64,000 nt of DNA from Tetragenococcus osmophilus (GTDB lineage: Bacteria > Bacillota > Bacilli > Lactobacillales > Enterococcaceae), in NCBI RefSeq assembly GCF_003795125.1, contig NZ_CP027783.1, positions 1,922,001 through 1,986,000 on the forward strand, given 5' to 3'. This document shows, in pieces, positions 41,417-52,888 of this stretch (the stretch's first letter is position 1; the number at the start of each line of letters is the position of its first letter). Position numbers and translations under genes: made by a program. Below the pieces are notes generated by a model, which saw nothing but the letters and a program-made list of their open reading frames with translations, was not told where the DNA came from and made no database searches.

Positions 41417-41445
41417 TTGACATAAACTTTTGAATCAGTTATGAT
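41417..41445 (+). promoter_or_regulatory. Promoter of the trpXYZ-like operon
   Basis: Consensus TTGACA (41417-41422), a 17-bp spacer and TATGAT (41440-41445) give a start near 41452, 27 nt before the leader-peptide ATG. Confidence 0.8.
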
Positions 41446-41478
41446 TATTTAAAATTAGAAGGAAAGGACGAATCTATC

Positions 41479-41544
41479 ATGCAAAATACTTACATCACTC
41501 AAGTAACTCAAACTTGGCAAAGCTGGTACAAAACGTTGTATTGA
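41479..41544 (+). CDS. Trp-rich leader peptide
   Basis: A 21-codon ORF with ribosome binding site GGAAAGG encodes a peptide whose residues 12-17 read TWQSWY. Two Trp codons in 21 and a stop codon placed just inside the first hairpin segment are typical of ribosome-controlled attenuation. The peptide itself needs no function; ribosome stalling at TGG codons would report tryptophan shortage. The downstream genes look like a Trp-type ABC transporter. Confidence 0.8.
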   Translation: MQNTYITQVTQTWQSWYKTLY

Positions 41545-41659
41545 TAGGTTTTATTTTCCTATAGATACAACTTTTTAGAAGTGCACTCTAAAGTTTTGTA
41601 TCTATGCCGGTCTACATATAGAAACGACACCGCATAGATAAAAGGTCTATGCGGTTTTT
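41530..41659 (+). promoter_or_regulatory. Five-segment transcription attenuator before trpX
   Basis: Segments: A 41530-41548, B 41558-41576, C 41587-41608, D 41630-41638, E 41646-41654. A pairs with B (about 17 of 19 positions). B pairs with C (ATAGATACAA with TTGTATCTAT plus an inner stem). C pairs with D (TATCTATGC with GCATAGATA). D pairs with E (CCGCATAGA with TCTATGCGG), forming a terminator with TTTTT at 41655-41659. A:B plus C:D excludes B:C plus D:E. A ribosome at the leader stop (41542) would cover A and favour the terminator; one stalled at the first Trp codon leaves A free and favours readthrough. Confidence 0.75.
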
Positions 41660-41665
41660 GTTATT

Positions 41666-41700
41666 AAGACAATTGCCGTAAAGTCAATTGTCTTTTTTTA
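41666..41700 (+). terminator. Second terminator in the trpX leader
   Basis: AAGACAATTG (41666-41675) pairs exactly with CAATTGTCTT (41685-41694), followed by a T run to 41699. It follows the attenuator directly. No sequence able to block it was found in the leader. Confidence 0.7.
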
Positions 41701-41751: not shown

Positions 41752-42771
41752 ATGAAAAATAGAGGGCTTATTTTAACGATTATCGTTTTATTTGCCATAC
41801 TTATAACGACTTTTGTTTTTGAAGTGGGCAAGTCAACTTCTGAAACGGAGTCAAATACAGACGATAGCAATAAAACAGTAGGGATACTACAATATGTGAG
41901 CCACCCTGCTTTAAATGATATTCGTCAAGGAGTAGAAGATGGTCTTGAAGAAGCTGGGTATAAGCAAGGGGAAAACTTAACCATAGAATATCAAAATGGG
42001 CAAGCGGATCAAAGTAATTTAGATACCATGAGTCAACAATTAGTGCAACAAGATCCAGACGCTTTGGTAGGAATTGCCACGCCTGCCGCGCAAAGTTTAG
42101 CTAATACAACACAAGATATTCCCACAGTATTAGGTGCTGTTACGGACCCCGTAGGCGCCAATTTAGTTGATGACATGCAAGAGCCGGGTGGAAATCTTAC
42201 AGGAGTATCGGATAAAGCTCCCGTAGATCAACAAATGGAATTAACCAAAGAGCTACTACCAGATACTGAAAAAATAGGAATTTTATATTCTTCGACTGAA
42301 GACAATTCAAAATATCAAGTAGCTGAAGCTAGAGAAGAAGCGGAAAACTCAGGTTTTGAAGTAGAAACTTTTCCAGTTCCTTCTACAAATGAAATTTCAC
42401 AAACTGTACAGACAATGACAGATGAAGTAGATACAATTTATGTTCCTTTGGATAATACCATTGCTAATGCCATGCCAGCAGTCGTTAACGAGGCCAATAA
42501 AACAGAGACACCAATTATCCCTTCAGTTGATACGATGGTTGAACAAGGAGGTTTGGCAACGATAAGTGTGAATCAATATGACTTAGGAGTAAAATCCGGT
42601 GAGATGGTAGCCGATATTCTTGATGGTAATGCAGAGCCTGCCACTACACCTATTTACACTTTTGATACGGGAGATATTATAATTAACGAAGAACAAGCAG
42701 AAAAATTAAACATAGAGCTGCCAGATTCTGTCAAAGAAGATGCCACATACGTAGAGGAGGATGACGAATGA
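41752..42771 (+). CDS. trpX: ABC transporter substrate-binding protein, TrpX-like
   Basis: The 339-residue protein belongs to the ABC_sub_bind family (PF04392), which includes the tryptophan-linked TrpX. It has an N-terminal membrane helix (about 5-24) but no lipobox Cys, so it is probably held by an uncleaved anchor. The binding lobes read VGILQYVSHPALNDIRQGVEDGL, VGIATPAAQSLAN, and PTVLGAVTDPVGANLV. Substrate assignment to tryptophan rests on the Trp-rich leader peptide upstream; the family also includes transporters of other ligands. The permease gene overlaps its stop by ATGA. Confidence 0.75.
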   Translation: MKNRGLILTIIVLFAILITTFVFEVGKSTSETESNTDDSNKTVGILQYVSHPALNDIRQGVEDGLEEAGYKQGENLTIEYQNGQADQSNLDTMSQQLVQQDPDALVGIATPAAQSLANTTQDIPTVLGAVTDPVGANLVDDMQEPGGNLTGVSDKAPVDQQMELTKELLPDTEKIGILYSSTEDNSKYQVAEAREEAENSGFEVETFPVPSTNEISQTVQTMTDEVDTIYVPLDNTIANAMPAVVNEANKTETPIIPSVDTMVEQGGLATISVNQYDLGVKSGEMVADILDGNAEPATTPIYTFDTGDIIINEEQAEKLNIELPDSVKEDATYVEEDDE

Positions 42772-43655
42772 TTATTTCATCAATTGGACAAGGGTTATTA
42801 TGGAGCGTGCTTGGGTTGGGAATTTTTATGACCTATCGGATCTTAAATTTCCCCGATATGACAACAGAAGGCTCATTTCCTTTAGGAGGAGCTGTATGTG
42901 TAACTGCCATCATTAATGGCATCCCTCCGATAATAGCCACACTTTTAGGCGTTTTAGCTGGCATGTGTGCCGGCCTTGTGACGGCGTTATTGTATACAAA
43001 AGGAAAAATTCCTGTCATTTTATCTGGCATATTGGTTATGTCAGCTTTAAATTCGGTTATGCTCTTTGTGATGCAATCGCCTAATTTATCTTTACTGAAT
43101 CAGTCTAATGTTGTCAACTTTTTTACAGACATGGGACTGCCGACGAACTTTGATATTGTATTTCTAGGTTTATTAGTCGTTATTGTACTCATTGCCATAT
43201 TGTTCTTTTTCTTTAGTACAGAATTTGGTCAAAGTTATATTGCTACAGGAGATAATGAAGCAATGGCCAAGTCGCTTGGAATCAAAACAGATCGAATGAA
43301 AATTACTGGCATTGTGCTTTCAAATGGTGTTATTGCTTTAGCAGGTGCGTTAATTTCTCAAAGTGATGGCTACGCTGATGTAAATAAAGGAACGGGCGTC
43401 ATCGTTATTGGCTTATCTTCCATAATCATTGGAGAAGTATTGTATGGAGAGCTCACCTTTTTTGAACGGCTAGTCGCTATCGTTATAGGAAGTATTATTT
43501 ACCAGTTGCTAATATTATTAATTATCCGTTTAGGTTTTGATACGACTTATCTCAACTTATTCTCTTCTATCGTATTAGCCTTTTGTCTATTGATACCACG
43601 ATTTAAAGAAAAGTTACAACTAAAAACAGGATTTGAAAGGGAGGCGGAAAAATGA
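42768..43655 (+). CDS. trpY: ABC transporter permease, TrpY-like
   Basis: The 295-residue integral membrane protein is a permease of the branched-chain/sugar type (BPD_transp_2) with about eight helices. FMTYRILNFPDMTTEGSFPLGGAV and FVALGDNEAMAKSLGI-type segments (here YIATGDNEAMAKSLGIKTD) match the permeases that partner PF04392 binding proteins. Overlapping ATGA junctions on both sides couple it to the binding protein and ATPase. Confidence 0.8.
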   Translation: MIISSIGQGLLWSVLGLGIFMTYRILNFPDMTTEGSFPLGGAVCVTAIINGIPPIIATLLGVLAGMCAGLVTALLYTKGKIPVILSGILVMSALNSVMLFVMQSPNLSLLNQSNVVNFFTDMGLPTNFDIVFLGLLVVIVLIAILFFFFSTEFGQSYIATGDNEAMAKSLGIKTDRMKITGIVLSNGVIALAGALISQSDGYADVNKGTGVIVIGLSSIIIGEVLYGELTFFERLVAIVIGSIIYQLLILLIIRLGFDTTYLNLFSSIVLAFCLLIPRFKEKLQLKTGFEREAEK

Positions 43656-44416
43656 GTGTTTTAGAAATGCGTAATGCTGCAAAATTAGTAAATAATGGTC
43701 CTAAAGAGAAAAAAGCTTTGTTAGATCATATTGATCTTTCTATTCAAAAAAATGATTTTATTACAGTACTAGGAGGCAATGGCGCAGGCAAAAGCACCTT
43801 ATTTAATACGATTTCTGGCACAATGCCCTTATCTTCTGGCAAGATTTTTCTGGAAGATAAGGATGTTACCCAATTAAGTGAAGAAAATAGAGCTTCCTTT
43901 CTCTCCCGTGTTTTTCAAGATCCTAAAATGGGGACAGCACCACGCATGACTGTGGCAGAAAATCTATTATTAGCCAAAGGACGAGGAAAAAAACGGCGTT
44001 TACGCTTACGCCAATTAAAACAAAATTTAGATCATTTTTATCAAATAACAAAAGAAGTAGGCAATGGATTAGAAAATCATTTAAATACGCCTGCCGGTGA
44101 TTTGTCAGGCGGTCAAAGGCAAGCCTTAAGCTTATTAATGGCAACTATTCAGACACCACAATTACTTCTTTTGGATGAGCATACGGCAGCACTTGACCCT
44201 AAGACATCAAAGCTTTTGATGCAACTTACAGATCAGCGAATTAAAGAACAACAATTGACTTGCTTAATGATTACACATCGAATGGAAGATGCGCTACAAT
44301 ACGGAAATCGTATGATTGTCATGCAAAAAGGTGAGATTGTTCAAGACTTGAACGAAGAGGAAAAAGCAAAACTATCGATGACAGACTTATTGCAGTTTTT
44401 TGAAGAAATCAATTGA
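43652..44416 (+). CDS. trpZ: ABC transporter ATP-binding protein, TrpZ-like
   Basis: The 254-residue ATPase has a Walker A loop GGNGAGKSTLF, Q-loop in VFQDPKMGT, signature LSGGQRQALSLL, Walker B LLLLDEHTAALDP and switch His in MITHRMEDAL. It powers the importer formed with the preceding permease. No terminator separates it from the aro promoter 16 bp downstream, so readthrough into the aro leader is possible. Confidence 0.88.
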   Translation: MSVLEMRNAAKLVNNGPKEKKALLDHIDLSIQKNDFITVLGGNGAGKSTLFNTISGTMPLSSGKIFLEDKDVTQLSEENRASFLSRVFQDPKMGTAPRMTVAENLLLAKGRGKKRRLRLRQLKQNLDHFYQITKEVGNGLENHLNTPAGDLSGGQRQALSLLMATIQTPQLLLLDEHTAALDPKTSKLLMQLTDQRIKEQQLTCLMITHRMEDALQYGNRMIVMQKGEIVQDLNEEEKAKLSMTDLLQFFEEIN

Positions 44417-44431
44417 AAATTAAAAAAATTG

Positions 44432-44460
44432 TTGACTTTTCTCTTTTCTTTTTCTATACT
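44432..44460 (+). promoter_or_regulatory. Promoter of the aro operon
   Basis: TTGACT (44432-44437), a 17-bp spacer and TATACT (44455-44460) put the start near 44467, 28 nt before the leader-peptide ATG. The geometry copies that of the trpX promoter and leader. Confidence 0.8.
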
Positions 44461-44494
44461 ATGTTCAATCTCAATTCAGTTTGGAGCGATTATT

Positions 44495-44551
44495 ATGATT
44501 AAAACAACGCAAATACAACTGAATAATTTTTACTTTAGCTATTTTAGATAG
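44495..44551 (+). CDS. Phe/Tyr-rich leader peptide
   Basis: An 18-codon ORF with ribosome binding site GGAG (44482-44485) encodes a peptide ending NNFYFSYFR: three Phe and two Tyr codons in the last seven positions. It is followed immediately by the first hairpin segment. This is the arrangement expected for attenuation of a Phe/Tyr biosynthetic operon by ribosome stalling. Confidence 0.8.
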   Translation: MIKTTQIQLNNFYFSYFR

Positions 44552-44748
44552 GTTTGTATTCATAAAACATGGGTACAAACACGACAAGCGTTTGTATCTA
44601 TGATGGCTAGAGTAATTTGAAGTGACAAAATAGGCCGCATAGATCAATAAAAATCTATAGCGAGCCGTAAAATAATTTTTGATGATACCTATACTACTGT
44701 ATAAAGGTGTTCGCTATAGTTTTTTAACTTAGCGGACACCTTTTTTTA
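44552..44748 (+). promoter_or_regulatory. Seven-segment hairpin-relay attenuator before aroE
   Basis: Segments: A 44552-44561, B 44571-44580, C 44590-44602, D 44633-44644, E 44653-44666, F 44706-44719, G 44730-44740. A:B is 10 bp (GTTTGTATTC with GGGTACAAAC). B:C is TACAAAC with GTTTGTA plus wobble pairs. C:D is ATCTATG with CATAGAT plus GGC/GCC. D:E is GGCCGCATAGAT with ATCTATAGCGAGCC, two bulges. E:F is CTATAGCGA with TCGCTATAG. F:G is GGTGTTCGCTA with TAGCGGACACC, followed by seven T. The sets A:B, C:D, E:F and B:C, D:E, F:G exclude each other. A ribosome at the leader stop (44549) covers A and should lead to the terminator; stalling at Phe12/Tyr13 leaves A free. Confidence 0.75.
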
Positions 44749-44804
44749 TTATCTTAGAGATTAAAGATGTTACTTGAGTACTTAAAAAAGCAAGGAGGTA
44801 AAAA

Positions 44805-45668
44805 ATGGAAACACAAATTAACGGAACTACTCAATTAGTAGGTTTCTTCGCTTATCCAGCCAAACATAGTTTGTCACCTAAAATGCAAAGCTTAGCTATG
44901 CAATTAACCGATACCGATGCCATTTACCTTGCTTTTGAAATAAAAAAAGAGCAATTAAATGCAGCAATTCAATCGATTTTTACTTTTGACATGTTAGGCG
45001 CTAACATATCAATGCCTCATAAAACAGAAGTTTTAGACTATTTAGATGATTATACGCAAAGTTGTGCTTTAATCGGTGCAGCTAACACAATTGTAAAACG
45101 TGATCAGCAATTATTTGGTTACAACACAGATGGTATAGGTTTTACGCGGAGCCTACAAGCCGCAGGCGTTAGCTATAAAGGAAAAACAATGACGATTTTA
45201 GGCGCAGGCGGGGCAGCTACAGCTATGGTCTGCCAGGCAGCTTTAGAAGGTGTAACTGAGATTCATATTTTTAGTCGCTTAGGACCCCGCTTTAACAAAA
45301 TGAGAGAAAAAATGAAAGAAATCCAACAACAAACTAATTGCAAAGTCACTTTAACAGAGATTTACGACGAAAAATCGTTAAAAGAAGCTATTAATGATTC
45401 GGAAATTTTAATCAATGCTACCAGTGTTGGGATGAAAAAAGACGAATGTCCGATCAGTGACTTTTCTGTCTTACGAAAAGGGTTAGTCGTTTACGATGCA
45501 ATCTATCAGCCTAAAGAAACTTATTTACTTAAAGAAGCTAAAAAACGTCAAGCAACGACAATAAACGGAATAGGCATGCTTTTATATCAAGGAGCCGCTT
45601 CTTTTGAATTATGGACACATAAAAAAATGCCAGTACAAAAGATTCAACCACTTTTGGAGGAAAACTAG
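44805..45668 (+). CDS. aroE: Shikimate dehydrogenase
   Basis: The 287-residue enzyme reduces 3-dehydroshikimate with NADPH. Visible features are HSLSPKMQS (the usual MHN reads MQS), the catalytic Lys in NISMPHKTEV, GAANTIV, the catalytic Asp in YNTDGIGF, the NADP loop ILGAGGAATA and the C-terminal GIGMLLYQGAASFELW. It is the first gene after the attenuator and starts behind AAGGAGG. Confidence 0.94.
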   Translation: METQINGTTQLVGFFAYPAKHSLSPKMQSLAMQLTDTDAIYLAFEIKKEQLNAAIQSIFTFDMLGANISMPHKTEVLDYLDDYTQSCALIGAANTIVKRDQQLFGYNTDGIGFTRSLQAAGVSYKGKTMTILGAGGAATAMVCQAALEGVTEIHIFSRLGPRFNKMREKMKEIQQQTNCKVTLTEIYDEKSLKEAINDSEILINATSVGMKKDECPISDFSVLRKGLVVYDAIYQPKETYLLKEAKKRQATTINGIGMLLYQGAASFELWTHKKMPVQKIQPLLEEN

Positions 45669-45754
45669 CAGAAGGTTATCGACGAAATTTTTCTTGAAAA
45701 TAGAAATTGGCGGCAACAAGATATTTTTATAAAAATAAAAAGTGAGGGAATACT

Positions 45755-46795
45755 ATGATTATTATTATGAAATCAGGAGCAACAAAAGAACAAGTGACAA
45801 CGGTTATTGACCGTATCAAAGATATAGGTTTAGATGTGCAAATCAACCGTGGAAAAGAACAAGTTGTATTAGGCCTACTTGGCGATACGAGAAATGTTCA
45901 AGATATTGCTTTTCGTAGCTATGAAGGGGTAGATACGACGATTCGTATCACCAATACTTATAAGTTAACTTCTCGCGAATTTCATCCACAAGATACTGTG
46001 GTGGATGTCGATGGAGTTAAAATTGGTGACGGGAGCTTTACTACAATGGCAGGTCCATGTTCGGTTGAAGGGCTTGAACAAATAAGAGAAACTGCGCAAA
46101 TAGCTAAAGAGGGAGGCGCGAAAATTTTAAGAGGAGGTGCTTTTAAACCACGAACTTCACCTTATGCTTTTCAAGGCTTAGAAGAAGAAGGATTAAAATA
46201 TTTAAGACAAGCAGCTGATGAATTTGGTTTAAAAGTAATTACGGAAGTGATGGATGAAAACCACATTGATCTAGTGGCGCGCTACAGTGATATCTTACAA
46301 ATTGGTGCGCGGAACATGCAGAACTTTAAATTATTATCAGCGGTAGGCCAAACAGGCAAACCAATTGGTTTAAAGCGTGGAATTTCCGGGACTATTGATG
46401 AATGGCTCAATGCTGCGGAATATGTAGCTGTTTCGGGTAAAAGTCCTGTCATTTTTATCGAACGTGGTATACGTACTTTTGAAAGTGCGACCCGTAATAC
46501 CTTCGATCTAAGTGCAGTACCCTTGATTAAGAAAATGAGCCATTTTCCAATTATTGTCGATCCGAGCCATGGCACAGGCGTTTGGGATTTAGTTCCTCCT
46601 ATGGCACGTGCAGGCGTAGCTGCTGGAGCGGATGGCATGATTGTTGAAATTCATCCTGATCCAGAAAATGCTTGGTCAGACGGCCAGCAATCCTTAAACG
46701 AAAAGACTTACCATCAAATGATGCACGAAATTCAGGTATTAAATACTGCGATGCAAGAAATAACATCATTGGAAGAACTTACTGTCAGGGGGTAG
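45755..46795 (+). CDS. aroF: 3-Deoxy-7-phosphoheptulonate synthase, type I-beta with N-terminal regulatory domain
   Basis: The 346-residue DAHP synthase commits erythrose 4-phosphate and PEP to the shikimate pathway. A ferredoxin-like/ACT-type domain (1-70: MIIIMKSGATKEQVTTVID) precedes the barrel, as in the Thermotoga enzyme, where Tyr and Phe inhibit through this domain. Barrel motifs include AGPCSVEG, LRGGAFKPRTSPYAFQG, QIGARNMQN and VDPSHGTG. No chorismate mutase domain is fused. With the upstream attenuator this gives two layers of aromatic feedback. The paralogue name varies (aroF, aroG, aroA in Bacillus). Confidence 0.92.
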   Translation: MIIIMKSGATKEQVTTVIDRIKDIGLDVQINRGKEQVVLGLLGDTRNVQDIAFRSYEGVDTTIRITNTYKLTSREFHPQDTVVDVDGVKIGDGSFTTMAGPCSVEGLEQIRETAQIAKEGGAKILRGGAFKPRTSPYAFQGLEEEGLKYLRQAADEFGLKVITEVMDENHIDLVARYSDILQIGARNMQNFKLLSAVGQTGKPIGLKRGISGTIDEWLNAAEYVAVSGKSPVIFIERGIRTFESATRNTFDLSAVPLIKKMSHFPIIVDPSHGTGVWDLVPPMARAGVAAGADGMIVEIHPDPENAWSDGQQSLNEKTYHQMMHEIQVLNTAMQEITSLEELTVRG

Positions 46796-46798
46796 AAA

Positions 46799-47857
46799 AT
46801 GTTACTTTCGCTAAATTTAAAGAAACATTCATATCAAATAAAAGTGCAGCGTAACAGTTTAGCACAAAGTGGCGCTTGGATAAAAACTATTTGGCAAAAA
46901 CAAAAAGTAGCCCTTATTACAGATAGTACAGTCAATCAGATTTATACTCAGCAAGTCAGAGAATCAATAGAACATAACGGTTTTCAAACGACTGTTATGG
47001 CAATACCAAGTGGCGAGGCGAGCAAGTCTTTAGAAATGGCAGAATTTCTTTATAGTAAACTAGCGCAAAATCACTTTACTAAAAGTGATGGCGTTGTTGC
47101 TTTAGGCGGAGGTGTCATTGGTGATTTAGCGGGGTTTGTGGCTGCTACTTATATGCGCGGGATTCATTTCTTGCAAATCCCTACAAGTTTATTAGCTCAG
47201 GTTGACTCCAGTATTGGCGGTAAAACAGCCGTCAATACTACAGCGGCTAAAAATTTAGTTGGAGCATTTTATCAACCAGACGGTGTTCTTATTGATCCTG
47301 ATGTCTTAGATACTTTACCTCAAAGTCGTTTAAAAGAAGGCGTAGCTGAAATTGTAAAAGCAGCAGCTATTGCGGATGTTCAATTGTGGCAGTTACTCGA
47401 GAGTTTAAAAGATATCAATGAATTAAAGCAGCGTGCTGAAGAAGTAATTATTCCAGCTTTAAAAGTGAAACAGCAAGTGGTAGAAGAAGATGAATTTGAT
47501 CAAAACCAACGCTTAATTTTAAATTTTGGTCATACAATTGGCCATGCGATTGAAAAAACAGCAGGATATGGTGTCATCAGTCACGGGGAAAGCGTTGCGA
47601 TTGGTATGGTAAAAATGACGCAGCATGCTGAAAAAATTGGACGAACAGCTAAAAGCACAACTCAAAAATTACAACAAATGCTAAACAAATTTGATTTGCC
47701 ACTTACATTTGCTGATTTTAATCCTATACAGATTAAAGAAGCAATCATCCATGATAAAAAAGTACGTGACGATCAATTAAAAATTATTTTATTAGAAAAG
47801 ATAGGACAAGCCAAAATTGTGCCTGTCTCTTTAGATACAATTGAAGAATATTTATAA
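46799..47857 (+). CDS. aroB: 3-Dehydroquinate synthase
   Basis: The 352-residue NAD- and metal-dependent enzyme forms the carbocycle. ALGGGVIGDLAGFVAATYMRGI, the substrate loop DSSIGGKTAVN, and metal ligands in LKEGVAEIVK and NFGHTIGHAIE are all present. It begins 3 bp after aroF, with GGGGG overlapping the preceding stop as ribosome binding site. Confidence 0.95.
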   Translation: MLLSLNLKKHSYQIKVQRNSLAQSGAWIKTIWQKQKVALITDSTVNQIYTQQVRESIEHNGFQTTVMAIPSGEASKSLEMAEFLYSKLAQNHFTKSDGVVALGGGVIGDLAGFVAATYMRGIHFLQIPTSLLAQVDSSIGGKTAVNTTAAKNLVGAFYQPDGVLIDPDVLDTLPQSRLKEGVAEIVKAAAIADVQLWQLLESLKDINELKQRAEEVIIPALKVKQQVVEEDEFDQNQRLILNFGHTIGHAIEKTAGYGVISHGESVAIGMVKMTQHAEKIGRTAKSTTQKLQQMLNKFDLPLTFADFNPIQIKEAIIHDKKVRDDQLKIILLEKIGQAKIVPVSLDTIEEYL

Positions 47858-47969
47858 AGTGGATGAATACACGGAGAAAGAATCGATAAATTATTATCTG
47901 ATTGGAGAAGTTTTTCCCCATGTTTACAGAAAAAATTAGCGAAGGCTAAAAAATAAGGAGAAAGTTATT

Positions 47970-49136
47970 ATGCGATATATTACAGCAGGAGAATCTCATG
48001 GACCAGAGTTAACCGCAATTATTGAGGGCTTACCAGCAGGGATGCCTTTGTCAGTGGAAGATATTAATCACGAACTTGCTCGTAGGCAAGTTGGTTATGG
48101 TCGCGGCGGACGGATGTTGATTGAAACAGATCAGATACAAATTACTTCTGGTTTACGTCACGGTGAAACGCTAGGGTCTCCTTTAACATTAGTGATTGAA
48201 AATAAGGATTGGAAAAATTGGCGTAAGGTGATGGGCATAGAAAGTGTCCCTGAAAAACAAAAAAAGATGCGCCGTGTTTCTCGCCCGCGTCCTGGACATG
48301 CAGACTTAGCAGGAGGGATGAAATATCATCAACAAGATTTGCGAAATGTTTTAGAACGTTCTTCTGCTCGGGAAACAGCCCTACGTACAGCCATTGGCGC
48401 TATTGCAAAAAAATTGCTGGCAGAACTAGGCATGGAAGTTGCCGGTCATGTCCGTATATTAGGCGGAATTGAAGCCACTATTCCTGAAGCAATTTCAATT
48501 CAAGAAATTAAAGACAAAGCAGAGGCATCTGATGTGAGAGTGGTTGATACAACTATTGAACAACCTATTCGTGATTTAATTGACGAAACAAAGAAAAATG
48601 GAGATACAATCGGCGGTGTTGTTGAGGTTTTAGTAGGAGGCGTCCCAGCTGGTTTGGGGAGCTATGTCCAATGGGATAAAAAGTTAGATGCCAAAATAGC
48701 CCAAGCAGTGGTTAGTATTAACGCCTTTAAAGGGGCAGAATTTGGTGTAGGATTTCAAGCTGGAAAGCTTCATGGTTCTGAAGTGATGGATGAGATTGCT
48801 TGGGACAAAACAAATGGTTATACGCGACGCTCCAATAACTTAGGTGGCTTTGAAGGAGGAATGACTAATGGCGAACCCATCGTTGTGCGCGGTGTAATGA
48901 AGCCTATTCCAACATTGTATAAACCATTACAAAGTGTTGATATTGATACAAAAGAAGCTTATAAAGCGAGTGTAGAACGTTCGGATAGTACAGCTGTACC
49001 CGCTGCTAGTGTTGTATGTGAAAACGTTGTGGCAACGGTGATTGCACAAGAAATTTTAGACAAATTTTCCAGCGATTCATTTGCTGAACTGCAAGAAGCG
49101 GTAGTTAGTTACAAAGAGTATTTAAAAAACTATTAG
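47970..49136 (+). CDS. aroC: Chorismate synthase
   Basis: The 388-residue FMN-dependent enzyme removes phosphate from EPSP to give chorismate. Signature segments: [47 protein letters not shown] and [21 protein letters not shown], with the late [14 protein letters not shown] 112-bp gap separates it from aroB; that gap contains only a doubtful 26-codon frame and a good AAGGAG site. Confidence 0.96.
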
Positions 49137-49147
49137 GAGATATTGCT

Positions 49148-50245
49148 ATGTCTAAACAGACAGTCATGATTATAGGGCTTGGTCTCATTGGATCATCTTT
49201 AGCTAGATGTATCAAAAAGAATCATCCCAATGTATGGATATGTGGGTGGGATAAATCTAATGAAACAAATAAAACAGCGGTAGAAAATAAGGTTGTAGAT
49301 TATCTGCCAGAAAGTTTTGAGAAGGCCGCTCAAGCTAGCGATGTTATCGTTTTGGCTGTACCTGTAAATACCGCTCAATATTATTTAAAAGAGTTATCAA
49401 CCATTGCTTTGAAAAAAGAAACGATTATTACAGACACAAGTAGTACGAAACAGGAAATCGTTTGTACAGCAAAAGGTTATAACTTAAATTTTATCGGTGG
49501 TCATCCAATGGCAGGTTCTCATAAGTCTGGGATTTTTGCATGCGATGAAAATTTGTTCGAAAACGCCTATTATATTTTTACACCGACAAAAATAGAGCAA
49601 GAAAACCAAGTGAAGCAACTAGAAGAATTATTTTCAGGAACGCGAGCTAAATTTGTCCAATTAGACCCTAAAGAACATGACGAAATTACAGGAATGCTAA
49701 GTCATTTACCTCACATTATAGCTTCTGGATTAGTCAATCAGGCAGAAGGTTTTAACCAAAAACACCCAAGAGCCAAACAATTAGCTGCTGGTGGATTTCG
49801 CGATATCACACGCATTGCTTCTTCTGACCCGCAGATGTGGACAGATATTTTGTTAAGCAATCGACATGTTTTATTACAAATGCTTTCTAAGTGGCAAAAG
49901 ACAACGTCTCAGCTTTCTTTTTGGTTAGAAAATAAAGATATCGAGCAGATCCATCGTTTTTTTGAAAATGCAAAAGAGATGCGTGATCATCTTCCTACTG
50001 ATGAGAAAGGCTCTATCCCAGCTTTTTATGATTTATTCGTAGATGTCCCAGACCGACCAGGAAGTATTGCTGAAATTACTTCTTTGTTAGCCAAAGTCCC
50101 CATCTCTTTGACAAATATTAAAATCTTAGAAACAAGAGAAGAGATCATCGGCGTATTACAGTTAACTTTTAAAAATGAGAAAGATTTAACAACAGCCAAA
50201 ATGTATATCGAAAATAAGACAGATTACCATTGTCGTTTGCAATAG
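49148..50245 (+). CDS. tyrA: Prephenate dehydrogenase with ACT domain
   Basis: The 365-residue enzyme oxidises prephenate toward tyrosine. The NAD loop IIGLGLIGSSLA, catalytic GGHPMAGSHKSG and the His of GMLSHLPHIIASGLV are present. A C-terminal ACT domain (about 293-365: DVPDRPGSIAEITSLLA) should give Tyr feedback. It follows aroC by 11 bp. Its TAG stop runs into a nine-G tract that serves as ribosome binding site for aroA. Confidence 0.93.
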   Translation: MSKQTVMIIGLGLIGSSLARCIKKNHPNVWICGWDKSNETNKTAVENKVVDYLPESFEKAAQASDVIVLAVPVNTAQYYLKELSTIALKKETIITDTSSTKQEIVCTAKGYNLNFIGGHPMAGSHKSGIFACDENLFENAYYIFTPTKIEQENQVKQLEELFSGTRAKFVQLDPKEHDEITGMLSHLPHIIASGLVNQAEGFNQKHPRAKQLAAGGFRDITRIASSDPQMWTDILLSNRHVLLQMLSKWQKTTSQLSFWLENKDIEQIHRFFENAKEMRDHLPTDEKGSIPAFYDLFVDVPDRPGSIAEITSLLAKVPISLTNIKILETREEIIGVLQLTFKNEKDLTTAKMYIENKTDYHCRLQ

Positions 50246-50257
50246 GGGGGGGGAATT

Positions 50258-51538
50258 ATGGAATTACTACAAACCAATTATTTACAAGGAAGTATTGAAG
50301 TGCCAGCAGATAAATCTATCGCACATCGCAGCATCATGTTTGGCGCACTAGCTGAAGGAAAAACTAAAATCCGAAACTTTTTACGTGCACAGGATTGTTT
50401 AAGTACACTACAAGCCTTTAAAGAATTAGGAGTACCTATCTATGATGATGGTAAAACGATCACAGTTACTGGAGTAGGAGTAGAGGGCCTAACTCCGAGT
50501 AAACAAAGGATTCATGTAGGAAACTCTGGTACAACGATGCGTTTGCTTTTAGGTATACTTGCAGGTACTAGCTTTGAAACAATGCTTGTCGGTGATGTTT
50601 CATTAAACAACCGCCCTATGCAACGAGTAATGTCTCCTTTAAAGCAAATGGGAGCTATAGTAAGTGGAAAAAATGATAATGAATTTCCACCTATGAAGAT
50701 TAAAGGTAATGTTAAATTAAGTCCCATTGAATATTACATGCCTGTTGCCAGCGCCCAGGTTAAATCAGCTATTCTTTTTGCAGCTTTACATGCAAAAGGT
50801 TGGACCAAGATTATTGAAAAAGAGCCATCTCGTAATCACACAGAAGAAATGATCACCCAATTTGGCGGAAAAATTCAAACAGATGGAAAAGTTATTTGGT
50901 TATATGGCCCGCAGTCTTTAAAGGGACAAGAAGTAATAATTCCTGGAGATATTTCTTCTGCTGCTTTCTTTTTAGTGGCGGGAGCAACTGTAGCAAATAG
51001 CGAAATAGTTTTAAAAAATGTAGGAATCAATCCTACGCGTACTGGAATTATTGATGTAATGAAGCAGATGGGTGCTAACTTAGAAATTACTGATAAGGAT
51101 TTAATTAACCAATCCGCATCATTAACTATAAAGTCTTCTTGTTTGCAAGCAGTCACAATTAAAGGGGCGATGATTCCTCGTTTAATTGACGAACTGCCTC
51201 TCATTGCTTTGTTAGCAACACAAGCACAAGGGACAACTATTATAAAAGATGCTCAAGAGTTAAAGGTAAAAGAGACCAATCGAATTGATGCAACAGCTTA
51301 CGAGTTACAAAAGATGGGAGCTGATATACAGGCAACACAAGATGGTTTGATTATTCAAGGAAAAACAGCTTTACATGGAGCAAAAGTCTCTAGCCATGGC
51401 GACCATCGGATTGGGATGATGCTACAAATTGCAGCGCTTATCAGTAGGGAAAGTGTAGACTTAGAAAATCCAGAGGCAATCGCGATTTCATATCCTAATT
51501 TTTTCAAGGATATAAAGCAGATAGTTAAAAGGAAGTGA
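50258..51538 (+). CDS. aroA: 3-Phosphoshikimate 1-carboxyvinyltransferase (EPSP synthase)
   Basis: The 426-residue enzyme joins shikimate 3-phosphate and PEP. PEP and substrate motifs are intact: [59 protein letters not shown] and GDHRIGMML. The N-terminal pattern is that of class II (glyphosate-tolerant) enzymes, common in Firmicutes. Translation depends on a run of nine G residues at 50245-50253. Confidence 0.95.
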
Positions 51539-51544
51539 TAGATA

Positions 51545-52054
51545 ATGGAAAATATTGTATTAATTGGTTTTATGGGTGCTGGAAAAACGACCATTGGCCA
51601 TCTTTTAGCTCAAAAGTTAAATACGAAACAACATGATTTTGATGAAATTTTAGTAGAAAAAATTGGGATGAGCATTGCGGACTACTTTGAGCGTTTTGGT
51701 AGTGAATCTTTCCGGGAAGTCGAAACGAATGTTTTACAACAAAGTATACAATTAGAAGGAATTATTTCGACAGGAGGAGGCATTGTGTTAAAAGAAGAAA
51801 ACCGCTTATTTTTACAAGAAAATACAAATGTCATCTACTTAAAGGCAGACTTAGACGAATTGATCCATCGTGTTGTTTTAGACAAACGAAATGTGCGCCC
51901 TTTAGCAACTTCAAAGTCTCATGATGAAATTCGTGAAGTCTATCTACCGCGCCTCCCCTTATATGAAGAAAGTGCAAAATATGTCATTGATACAACAAAA
52001 AAGCAACCAGAAGAAATCGTTCAAGAAATTTTAGATAAAGTAGAGGTAATGTAG
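51545..52054 (+). CDS. aroK: Shikimate kinase
   Basis: The 169-residue kinase phosphorylates shikimate. The P-loop GFMGAGKTTIG, substrate-binding DFDEILVEKIG, FREVE, STGGGIVLK and the lid NVRPLA are visible. It starts six bases after the aroA stop and ends at the ATG of pheA, with overlapping translation signals. Confidence 0.95.
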   Translation: MENIVLIGFMGAGKTTIGHLLAQKLNTKQHDFDEILVEKIGMSIADYFERFGSESFREVETNVLQQSIQLEGIISTGGGIVLKEENRLFLQENTNVIYLKADLDELIHRVVLDKRNVRPLATSKSHDEIREVYLPRLPLYEESAKYVIDTTKKQPEEIVQEILDKVEVM

Positions 52055-52888
52055 ATGAAAGTTGGTTATTTAGGGCCTAAAAACTCGTTTACTTTTCAAG
52101 CAGCAAATGAACTTTTTGAAGAAAATAACTTAGTTTCTTTTGCTTCCATCCCATTAACAATTGAGCATCTGGAAAATAAGTCGATTGATTTGGCAGTAGT
52201 CCCTATCGAAAATTCGCTGGAAGGGTCCGTCCATGCTACAGTCGATTATTTATTCGGTCAAACTGCAATTACAGTACAAGAAGAAATCATTCTACCTATA
52301 CGCCAACAATTGCTAGGGTTAGAAGAGGTTAAACAACCACAAAAAATCCTTTCTCATCCACAAGCTCTTGCGCAAACAAAACAGTACTTAAAAACTTATT
52401 ACCCAGAGGTCTCTTTAGAAGCAGTAAGTTCTACAACTTTTGCAGCGCAATATGTGGCAACGCATCCTGAAAATAAGCTGTTAGCGATCGCTTCTGAAAA
52501 AGCTGCGCGAGAATATAATTTAAAGGTTGTAGCTTCAGATATCCAAGATAACGCAGCAAATCAAACTCGTTTTTGGGTATTAGCTCTAGATAAAAACAGA
52601 CAAATAACTAGAAATACTCAAGATAAAAAAGTAACATTATTTATTACATTACCTGCAAATTTACCTGGCGCACTTCACCAAGTGTTATCTGCTTTTGCCT
52701 GGCGAAAAATTGATCTTGCAAAGATTGAATCACGTCCTTTAAAAACTAACTTAGGAGAATACTTTTTTGTTATTGATGTCGTGTTAAAAGAAAATGAAAT
52801 ATTGATCGAAAATGCAGTTAAAGAGATCGAGTTATTACAAGCCAAAGTTCAAAGGGTGGGCACGTATTCGATAAATAGGTTTACTTAA
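52055..52888 (+). CDS. pheA: Prephenate dehydratase with ACT domain
   Basis: The 277-residue enzyme converts prephenate to phenylpyruvate. VGYLGPKNSFTFQAA, VVPIENSLEGSVHATVDYL and the catalytic TRFWVLA are present. The ACT domain (about 195-277) includes LPGALHQVLSAFAWRKIDLAKIESRP, the ESRP motif of Phe regulation. It is the last gene of the operon. No chorismate mutase or 3-dehydroquinate dehydratase gene is in the operon, so those must lie elsewhere. Confidence 0.95.
   Translation: MKVGYLGPKNSFTFQAANELFEENNLVSFASIPLTIEHLENKSIDLAVVPIENSLEGSVHATVDYLFGQTAITVQEEIILPIRQQLLGLEEVKQPQKILSHPQALAQTKQYLKTYYPEVSLEAVSSTTFAAQYVATHPENKLLAIASEKAAREYNLKVVASDIQDNAANQTRFWVLALDKNRQITRNTQDKKVTLFITLPANLPGALHQVLSAFAWRKIDLAKIESRPLKTNLGEYFFVIDVVLKENEILIENAVKEIELLQAKVQRVGTYSINRFT

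Follow-up and report, generated by a model that had tools for sequence, protein, structure and literature searches.

The aromatic amino acid biosynthesis genes in the 64,000-nucleotide stretch of Tetragenococcus osmophilus DNA analyzed here (the window) are very probably controlled by a ribosome-mediated transcription attenuator sensing charged Phe- and Tyr-tRNA. Across the sequences compared, conservation covers the leader and its codons, the position of its stop codon, seven pairings, the terminator, and the genes targeted. Phe/Tyr leader-peptide attenuation had been proposed in a sequence-only reading of the window, and this part of the explanation is strongly supported by the recurrence of the leader, stop position, pairings and gene targets across the Lactobacillales; the kinetics of the relay are inferred, with folding models lending support in part. 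We also lean towards a broader interpretation, in which the Rfam families RF02863 and RF04312 would form the two branches of a single superfamily, spread across the order, whose members are aromatic amino acid switches read by the ribosome, each an eight-segment, three-state relay of ~190 nt that is off when untranslated, off when the ribosome is at the stop codon, and on only when the ribosome is stalled on cognate codons.

The leader site is flanked by ABC transporter genes on one side and aroE on the other (Table 1). The promoter with a 17-bp spacer, the 18-codon open reading frame (ORF), the seven segments each pairing with the next, and the terminator with seven T that the sequence-only reading had described were all recovered, although the promoter match alone is not beyond chance because the stretch contains 5 such sites versus 3.4 expected in the consensus scan. 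The terminator, found by our own hairpin search and present in the fold, has a 14-bp stem and a loop of 13; it was not listed by the consensus terminator scan, which admits loops of 3–8 only. Duplexes between neighboring segments A to G range from -12.4 to -21.4 kcal/mol in the window, and the 282-nt transcript folds at -84.1 kcal/mol versus -49.0 (sd 4.5) for shuffled sequences (z = -7.8; 0 of 200 shuffles as low). In the minimum-free-energy structure, segment L, which holds the Phe/Tyr codons, pairs with C through 14 + 6 base pairs, with hairpin A:B enclosed. The lowest-energy fold also pairs the 5′ UTR ahead of the Shine–Dalgarno (SD) sequence (44473–44483) with the Gln-Leu-Asn codons of the leader (44514–44524). 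Pfam matches in the downstream row cover aroE, DAHP synthase, tyrA, and pheA, and the remaining gene names are those that we presume from the sequence. Elsewhere in the window, a PyrR binding site (RF00515, 28485–28631) scores just above the cut-off.

Table 1. Features of the aro leader and of its Trp sister element in the window.
Feature	Position	Strand	Basis
Promoter-like site, sigma-70 type, TTGACT-17-TATACT	44432–44460	+	Consensus scan, 10/12 matches
Shine–Dalgarno GGAG of leader ORF	44483–44486	+	Sequence
Leader ORF, 18 codons, MIKTTQIQLNNFYFSYFR plus stop, ending NNFYFSYFR	44495–44551	+	Sequence and conservation
Segment L, Phe/Tyr codons, partner C (44595–44615) if ribosome-free	44530–44550	+	Minimum-free-energy structure; 130/131 copies
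Segment A, directly 3′ of stop codon	44552–44563	+	Motif anchors and duplex folding; fixed-register A:B
Segment B	44569–44580	+	Motif anchors and duplex folding; A:B, B:C
Segment C, possible partners L, B or D	44590–44615	+	Motif anchors and duplex folding
Segment D	44633–44644	+	Motif anchors and duplex folding; C:D, D:E
Segment E	44653–44666	+	Motif anchors and duplex folding; E:F
Segment F, terminator 5′ arm	44703–44719	+	Hairpin search; covariation
Segment G (44730–44743) and seven T (44741–44747), intrinsic terminator 3′ arm	44730–44747	+	Sequence, hairpin search
Gene row aroE-aroF-aroB-aroC-tyrA-aroA-aroK-pheA, downstream of leader	44805–52888	+	ORFs
Sister promoter-like site TTGACA-17-TATGAT	41417–41445	+	Read from sequence
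Sister leader ORF, MQNTYITQVTQTWQSWYKTLY plus stop, Trp codons	41479–41544	+	Sequence
Sister segments A 41535–41548, B 41558–41571, C 41596–41610, D 41629–41639, E 41646–41655, F 41666–41679, G 41685–41694, T run to 41699	41535–41699	+	Folding, duplex tests
TrpX-type ABC transporter behind sister leader	41752–44416	+	PF04392 1e-93, BPD_transp_2, ABC_tran

The window leader matches RF02863 (sRNA_2410, ‘Enterococcus sRNA’), a family filed as a small RNA gene, at 78.1 bits against a cut-off of 61, the matched part running from within the ORF as far as the terminator. At E ≤ 0.001, the RF02863 model hits 101 of 105 Enterococcaceae genomes, with as many as six matches per genome, and scores above cut-off in 95 of them; for the Lactobacillales the figures are 215 of 395 genomes, of which 99 exceed the cut-off, and 52 of 80 genera. 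Among 398 genomes drawn across the class, 35 contained the element, 30 of them Lactobacillales, and none of the 14 control genomes of the three surveys matched. T-box families were absent from the Rfam matches for positions 44400–44900 at E up to 1, and the leu/phe leader (RF01743) was found in 0 of 198 Lactobacillales genomes, the window genome included, with the Lactococcus lactis control matching; both identities were rejected, the covariance models giving no match.

We examined 132 Enterococcaceae copies, taken among the RF02863 matches listed, and searched downstream of each oriented copy for the first ORF matching one of eleven window proteins (eight aro/tyr/phe and three ABC). All 132 precede genes for aromatic amino acids in the same orientation and do not stand as independent small RNA genes: the first matching gene was aroE in 47, aroF in 7, aroC in 2, aroB-like and aroK-like in 1 each, and ABC_sub_bind in 74. 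The matching gene begins 125–502 nt from the model start in 131 copies and at 953 nt in L041, which has a transposase-like 139-aa ORF (identified by eye) between the attenuator and aroE. Leaderless orphan copies near rpoB were rejected as a class; those 12 loci are on the minus strand. Forty copies from other Lactobacillales families, taken among the RF02863 matches listed for Lactobacillales genomes, have a solute-binding protein downstream in 26, aroE in 9, aroF in 1, and a pheA-like gene (26% identity) in 2; of the remaining two, L144 precedes a family 3 solute-binding protein and L152 runs off the contig. The element extends beyond the Lactobacillales, since three loci outside the order (L279–L281) carry the leader MLLTKQQQHNRFYFSYF, with the end FYFSYF, ahead of aroF. 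A fourth (L282) has the leader end YYFSYFR and a solute-binding protein downstream. Two weak RF02863 matches concern other genes: L283, outside the order, has the leader end YYYFGWFS before a transketolase gene (PF00456), whose product makes a precursor for the shikimate pathway, and L284 has the end WYSYRR before a gene of the sodium:neurotransmitter symporter family (PF00209), possibly an aromatic amino acid transporter.

The leader peptide is present in 131 of the 132 copies, the other (L067) containing an undetermined base. Over its six C-terminal residues it reads YFSYFR in 117, FFSFFR in 5, FFSYFR in 4, and YYVSYY in 2, with three other ends occurring once each. Of the 132 copies, 126 have an ATG with an SD sequence in the true frame and none has one in either shifted frame; outside the family the counts are 33 of 40 and none, respectively, so that in the sequences compared a short in-frame ORF with an SD sequence lies ahead of the genes, as in an attenuator. 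None of the 126 copies whose leader ends canonically deviates at codon -5 (TTT), -4 (AGC), or -2 (TTT), which points to a constraint on the RNA sequence beyond that on the peptide; the bases of these codons fall within the L:C pairing. The earlier observation that the stop codon abuts segment A holds for most copies: of 131, 109 have A beginning at the stop codon, 20 others have it no more than one base away (thus -1 to +1 nt from the stop end in 129), and the last 2 have it 4 nt further on. Among the 40 copies from other families, A lies within one base of the stop in 29, and the stop is 8 nt inside A in 10. In five transporter copies (L044, L048, L073, L075, and L083) the leader end contains Phe and no Tyr (FFFSFFR), possibly a mark of transporters specific for Phe.

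The pairings were assessed by comparing the duplex energy of each segment with its own and with a shuffled partner, a copy being counted when it was more than two sd beyond the control. Mean energies over 131 copies (own/shuffled, kcal/mol; copies beyond control in parentheses) were -19.5/-7.4 for L:C (130), -14.8/-4.5 for A:B (130), -16.9/-5.4 for B:C (130), -14.7/-6.0 for C:D (128), -14.7/-4.8 for D:E (131), -12.9/-4.8 for E:F (120), and -19.8/-4.9 for F:G (131), the last being partly selected because it was found by hairpin search. With 120–131 of 131 copies beyond the shuffled controls, the pairings are kept in related genomes, as the original proposal required. In the 40 outside copies, 11 of which had weak anchors, the corresponding counts were 40 for L:C, A:B, B:C, and D:E, 35 for C:D, 28 for E:F, and 38 for F:G. 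Swapping in a partner from the other gene class costs 14 kcal/mol for F:G, 6 for E:F, ~1.7 for A:B and D:E, and ≤0.5 for L:C, B:C, and C:D, which are almost invariant across copies; the own partner of E:F beats the mean partner of the other class in 129 of 131 copies. Non-neighboring pairs are near the shuffled level, except for L:E (-11.7), D:G (-9.9), and, weakly, C:F and L:G, signals that arise because C resembles E and E resembles G. In a fixed register, at least 117 of 131 copies are paired at each of the 12 positions of A:B, with some double changes; in the 40 outside copies, two of these positions pair in 13 and 24 only.

Covariation was analyzed using our own R-scape-like, tree-based implementation with 120 simulated alignments and 105 distinct rows, after 10 duplicates and 17 of 132 rows with poor anchors or F register, including outliers with double A:B changes, had been dropped. 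Covariation was significant for terminator pairs only (top E 0.008), and no upstream pair reached significance (A13:B2, E 5.6; E6:F9, E 9.2); because the nearly invariant upstream segments hardly vary, the latter result neither supports nor refutes these pairings. Judging from these comparisons, the element consists of hairpins that exclude one another and end in an intrinsic terminator, as in an attenuator, with E:F being weak in the Trp branch described below. The two exclusive pairing sets of the sequence-only reading were thus sound as to the neighbor pairings, which are conserved, and incomplete in that they missed L:C, which gives an untranslated default state.

In the mechanism that we propose, translation of the leader by a ribosome would go on as RNA polymerase transcribes the relay. 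If Phe or Tyr runs low, the ribosome would stall at codons -7 to -3, covering L and sparing A, as the anatomy suggests; A:B would then form, followed by C:D and E:F, leaving F unavailable to G and allowing read-through into aroE. With ample Phe and Tyr, the ribosome at the stop codon would cover A, and B:C, D:E, and F:G would lead to termination. Without translation, L:C and A:B would form, as in the computed lowest-energy fold, followed by D:E and F:G, so that the default would be off. The Trp sister element would use the same mechanism for Trp.

In the two folding models used, equilibrium folding under a mask and barrier-limited co-transcriptional folding, the ribosome is represented by a mask that does not move. 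For the window, the equilibrium model gives probabilities of 1.00 for L:C, 1.00 for A:B, and 0.99 for D:E without a ribosome, and 1.00 for B:C with the ribosome at the stop. Averaged over 131 copies, E:F before the synthesis of G is 0.29 without a ribosome, 0.46–0.51 for stalls between codons -7 and -3, and 0.36 when the stop has been reached; in the window itself it is 0.26–0.50 when stalled versus 0.52 at the stop, so that the stalled value is not higher. In the barrier model, run on 60 of the 131 copies, C:D formed in 3 copies with the ribosome at the stop and in 17 with stalling at codon -5, and D:E in 47 and 33, respectively; E:F formed in at most 4, stalling at codon -3 already favored B:C (46 of 60), and many copies did not switch. 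The window formed A:B and C:D under one of five masks (stall at codon -5) and at the lowest barrier only, and barriers ≥9 gave the terminator in every case. Equilibrium folding of full-length transcripts yielded no antiterminated state, the terminator being favored at every ribosome position; the relay would therefore have to act by the order in which the helices form. The idea of a domino carrying the ribosome signal to the terminator has partial support from these models: the upstream helices switch, while the E:F step is seen in the mean over copies or in some of them only; co-transcriptional folding likewise goes in the predicted direction in part of the copies, and many do not switch.

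Upstream of the TrpX-type transporter lies a sister element (41417–41699) with a layout like that of the aro leader and a fold z of -6.4. It matches RF04312, the trpB motif, at 41558–41666 with 49.2 bits, below the cut-off of 59. A DNA search with the sister element gave a match, in some cases short, in 86 of 103 Enterococcaceae genomes, and each of the 43 copies examined has a leader with at least 2 Trp codons, most ending in W(Q/R)xWRR, and precedes a solute-binding protein 48–100% identical to that of the window. The source genome contains two Trp-type copies and one Phe/Tyr-type copy, as identified by a conserved 15-base pattern with no mismatch; the second Trp-type copy (L266, contig 1, about 1772319) has the leader MQLSYANNLAQVWQNWRSKLY, and the protein encoded behind it shares 58% identity with the solute-binding protein of the window. 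RF04312 itself occurs in 137 of 246 Lactobacillales genomes, in 47 of them above cut-off, and in 5 of 299 genomes across the phylum, three of them outside the Lactobacillales and all three weak; these hits (L323–L325), which are without a Trp leader, were taken as chance. The RF04312 model begins after the ORF. Upstream of 30 copies above cut-off (6 from Enterococcaceae), the leader has at least 2 Trp codons in 27 and one in the other 3, versus 24 of 3300 shuffled upstream controls with at least 2 Trp codons, and downstream there is a solute-binding protein in 24, a gene identified by eye as trpB-like in 3 (one confirmed by Pfam as PALP), and an unrecognised gene in 3. The Phe/Tyr copy L282 matches both RF02863 and RF04312, each below cut-off, and the two families are therefore probably related. 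In the Trp branch, D:E is directly trailed by a T run, and E:F is beyond the control in 4 of 42 copies and short of it in 38; the last relay step may therefore differ in this branch.

The amino acid encoded by the leader agrees with the transporter behind it. The Trp-leader protein of the window has 3lft as its best solved relative (4e-95), and the Phe/Tyr-leader protein of L001 is closest to 6hni. Available structural descriptions indicate that 3LFT binds tryptophan through Gln-284 and that Tyr occupies this site in CD0873 (6HNI), which binds tyrosine, and in VC_1101, which binds phenylalanine (PMC6816091). We aligned the pockets of 133 proteins, 43 behind Trp leaders and 90 behind Phe/Tyr leaders, the latter comprising 65 of 74 from Enterococcaceae (the other 9 were not extracted) and 25 from outside. 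The selectivity site is Gln in all 41 resolved proteins of the 43 following Trp leaders, including the window sister-leader transporter, and Tyr in all 85 resolved proteins of the 90 following Phe/Tyr leaders; as leader and protein may be co-inherited, this is one consistent association and not many independent events. A match between leader and the Glu-263 site for Phe versus Tyr was not found in the 133 aligned proteins, in which Glu occurs at that site in 1 protein only. In the sequences analyzed, leader codons thus match the amino acid of the controlled genes, as in an attenuator: aro genes or Tyr-pocket transporters lie downstream of Phe/Tyr leaders, and Gln-pocket transporters downstream of Trp leaders.

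Three other explanations compete with leader-peptide attenuation. The terminating conformer would be the same if free aromatic amino acid held the YFSYFR or WRR ribosome at the stop codon, where it would mask A, an arrest peptide for which TnaC is a precedent. The very uniform last residues, with Arg before the stop, fit such arrest, yet the uniformity is at the nucleotide level, in bases that pair with C (TTT, AGC, TTT; 126 of 126), and leader ends vary (FFFSFFR, YYVSYY, FYFSYF, YYYFGWFS, WYSYRR, and WQSWYKTLY), which makes this explanation very unlikely. We also regard as improbable a trans-acting role, which is how Rfam files RF02863, to the point of giving it hardly any weight: the model begins within the leader ORF, and all 132 copies examined have a same-strand aro or ABC_sub_bind gene within 125–953 nt. 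Short transcripts on Northern blots from Enterococcus faecium would suit a small RNA; the available account reports sRNA_2410 as a 195-nt RNA giving two Northern bands (PMC5593968), and the words “leader” and “attenuat” are absent from the main text of that paper. Judging from its name, the RF02863 entry would derive from this RNA.

Direct binding of an aromatic amino acid or a precursor by the RNA, with the short ORF being incidental, would explain the high nucleotide conservation and has been proposed in print. Two elements of Streptococcus agalactiae, which produce short and long transcripts from one start site, are described as lying upstream of paralogous ABC transporters (gbs2033 and gbs1262), the gbs2033 element also upstream of E. 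faecium aroFBC-tyrA, and were suggested in 2015 to be aromatic amino acid riboswitches (PMC4448216); from lineage and genes, and not from alignment, we infer that they are the same as the present elements. If so, their short and long transcripts also speak for attenuation, as does the 195-nt E. faecium RNA with its two bands. The trpB motif (SRC-39-1), with >900 members located mostly before an uncharacterised ABC transporter, was presented in 2024 as a strong riboswitch candidate in a paper that also states that a classic attenuator cannot be ruled out (PMC11109978). Our Trp sister elements match this motif, for which the available part of that paper describes no Trp leader peptide. Nevertheless, the conserved bases are accounted for by overlapping pairings, with C held in three helices; the leader ORF is conserved together with its matching codons, which agree with the transporter pocket; and the ORF falls outside or at the edge of the models, RF04312 starting after it and RF02863 inside it. 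A riboswitch is accordingly unlikely in our assessment, and leader-peptide attenuation is the explanation that we prefer.

Leader-peptide attenuation resembles the control of the enteric Phe, Trp, and His operons, which combine an intrinsic terminator with hairpins that exclude one another, use ribosome position as the signal, and have a leader peptide in which the regulated residue abounds. The present elements differ from the enteric attenuators in phylum and sequence, in having more segments, and in that leader codons pair with the relay; furthermore, A would be masked by the ribosome at the stop and not by a stalled one. The his leader contains a chain of alternating pairings, and the relay, whose length had been considered unusual, is therefore longer than usual and not unparalleled. 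Within the Firmicutes, published descriptions include a leucine-rich attenuator peptide of the Staphylococcus aureus ilv operon, which is backed by reporters and likewise represents leader-peptide attenuation, for another amino acid and in an account that describes no long relay (PMC5794164), and predicted leader-peptide attenuation of hisS and hisZ in bacilli (PMC2965389). The candidate uORFC-13-1 of Acholeplasma aroF, with 24 examples, also has a leader ORF, containing a Phe codon, and a terminator; its lineage differs and its description mentions no relay (PMC8632094). A homologous Trp transporter is controlled in Streptococcus suis trpXYZ, but there by T-box transcription attenuation, which is described as binding tRNA and with no leader peptide (PMC9382623). 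Searches of open-licence articles in PubMed Central found no published experiment on this leader and no paper containing the four leader peptide motifs. New here, compared with known leader-peptide attenuators, would be the longer relay, the default-off pairing of the leader's own codons, and the existence of versions for two amino acids.

T-boxes are usually expected for such control in the Lactobacillales, and our results suggest that this order commonly places aromatic amino acid genes under ribosome-read control. From the sequence evidence, the trpB motif riboswitch candidate and the RF02863 small RNA are both likely to be leader-peptide attenuators, and if the superfamily interpretation is true, one published strong riboswitch candidate and one Rfam small RNA would leave their present classes. 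The long relay offers directly testable kinetics, and the leader codons would predict the substrate of many uncharacterised ABC transporters.
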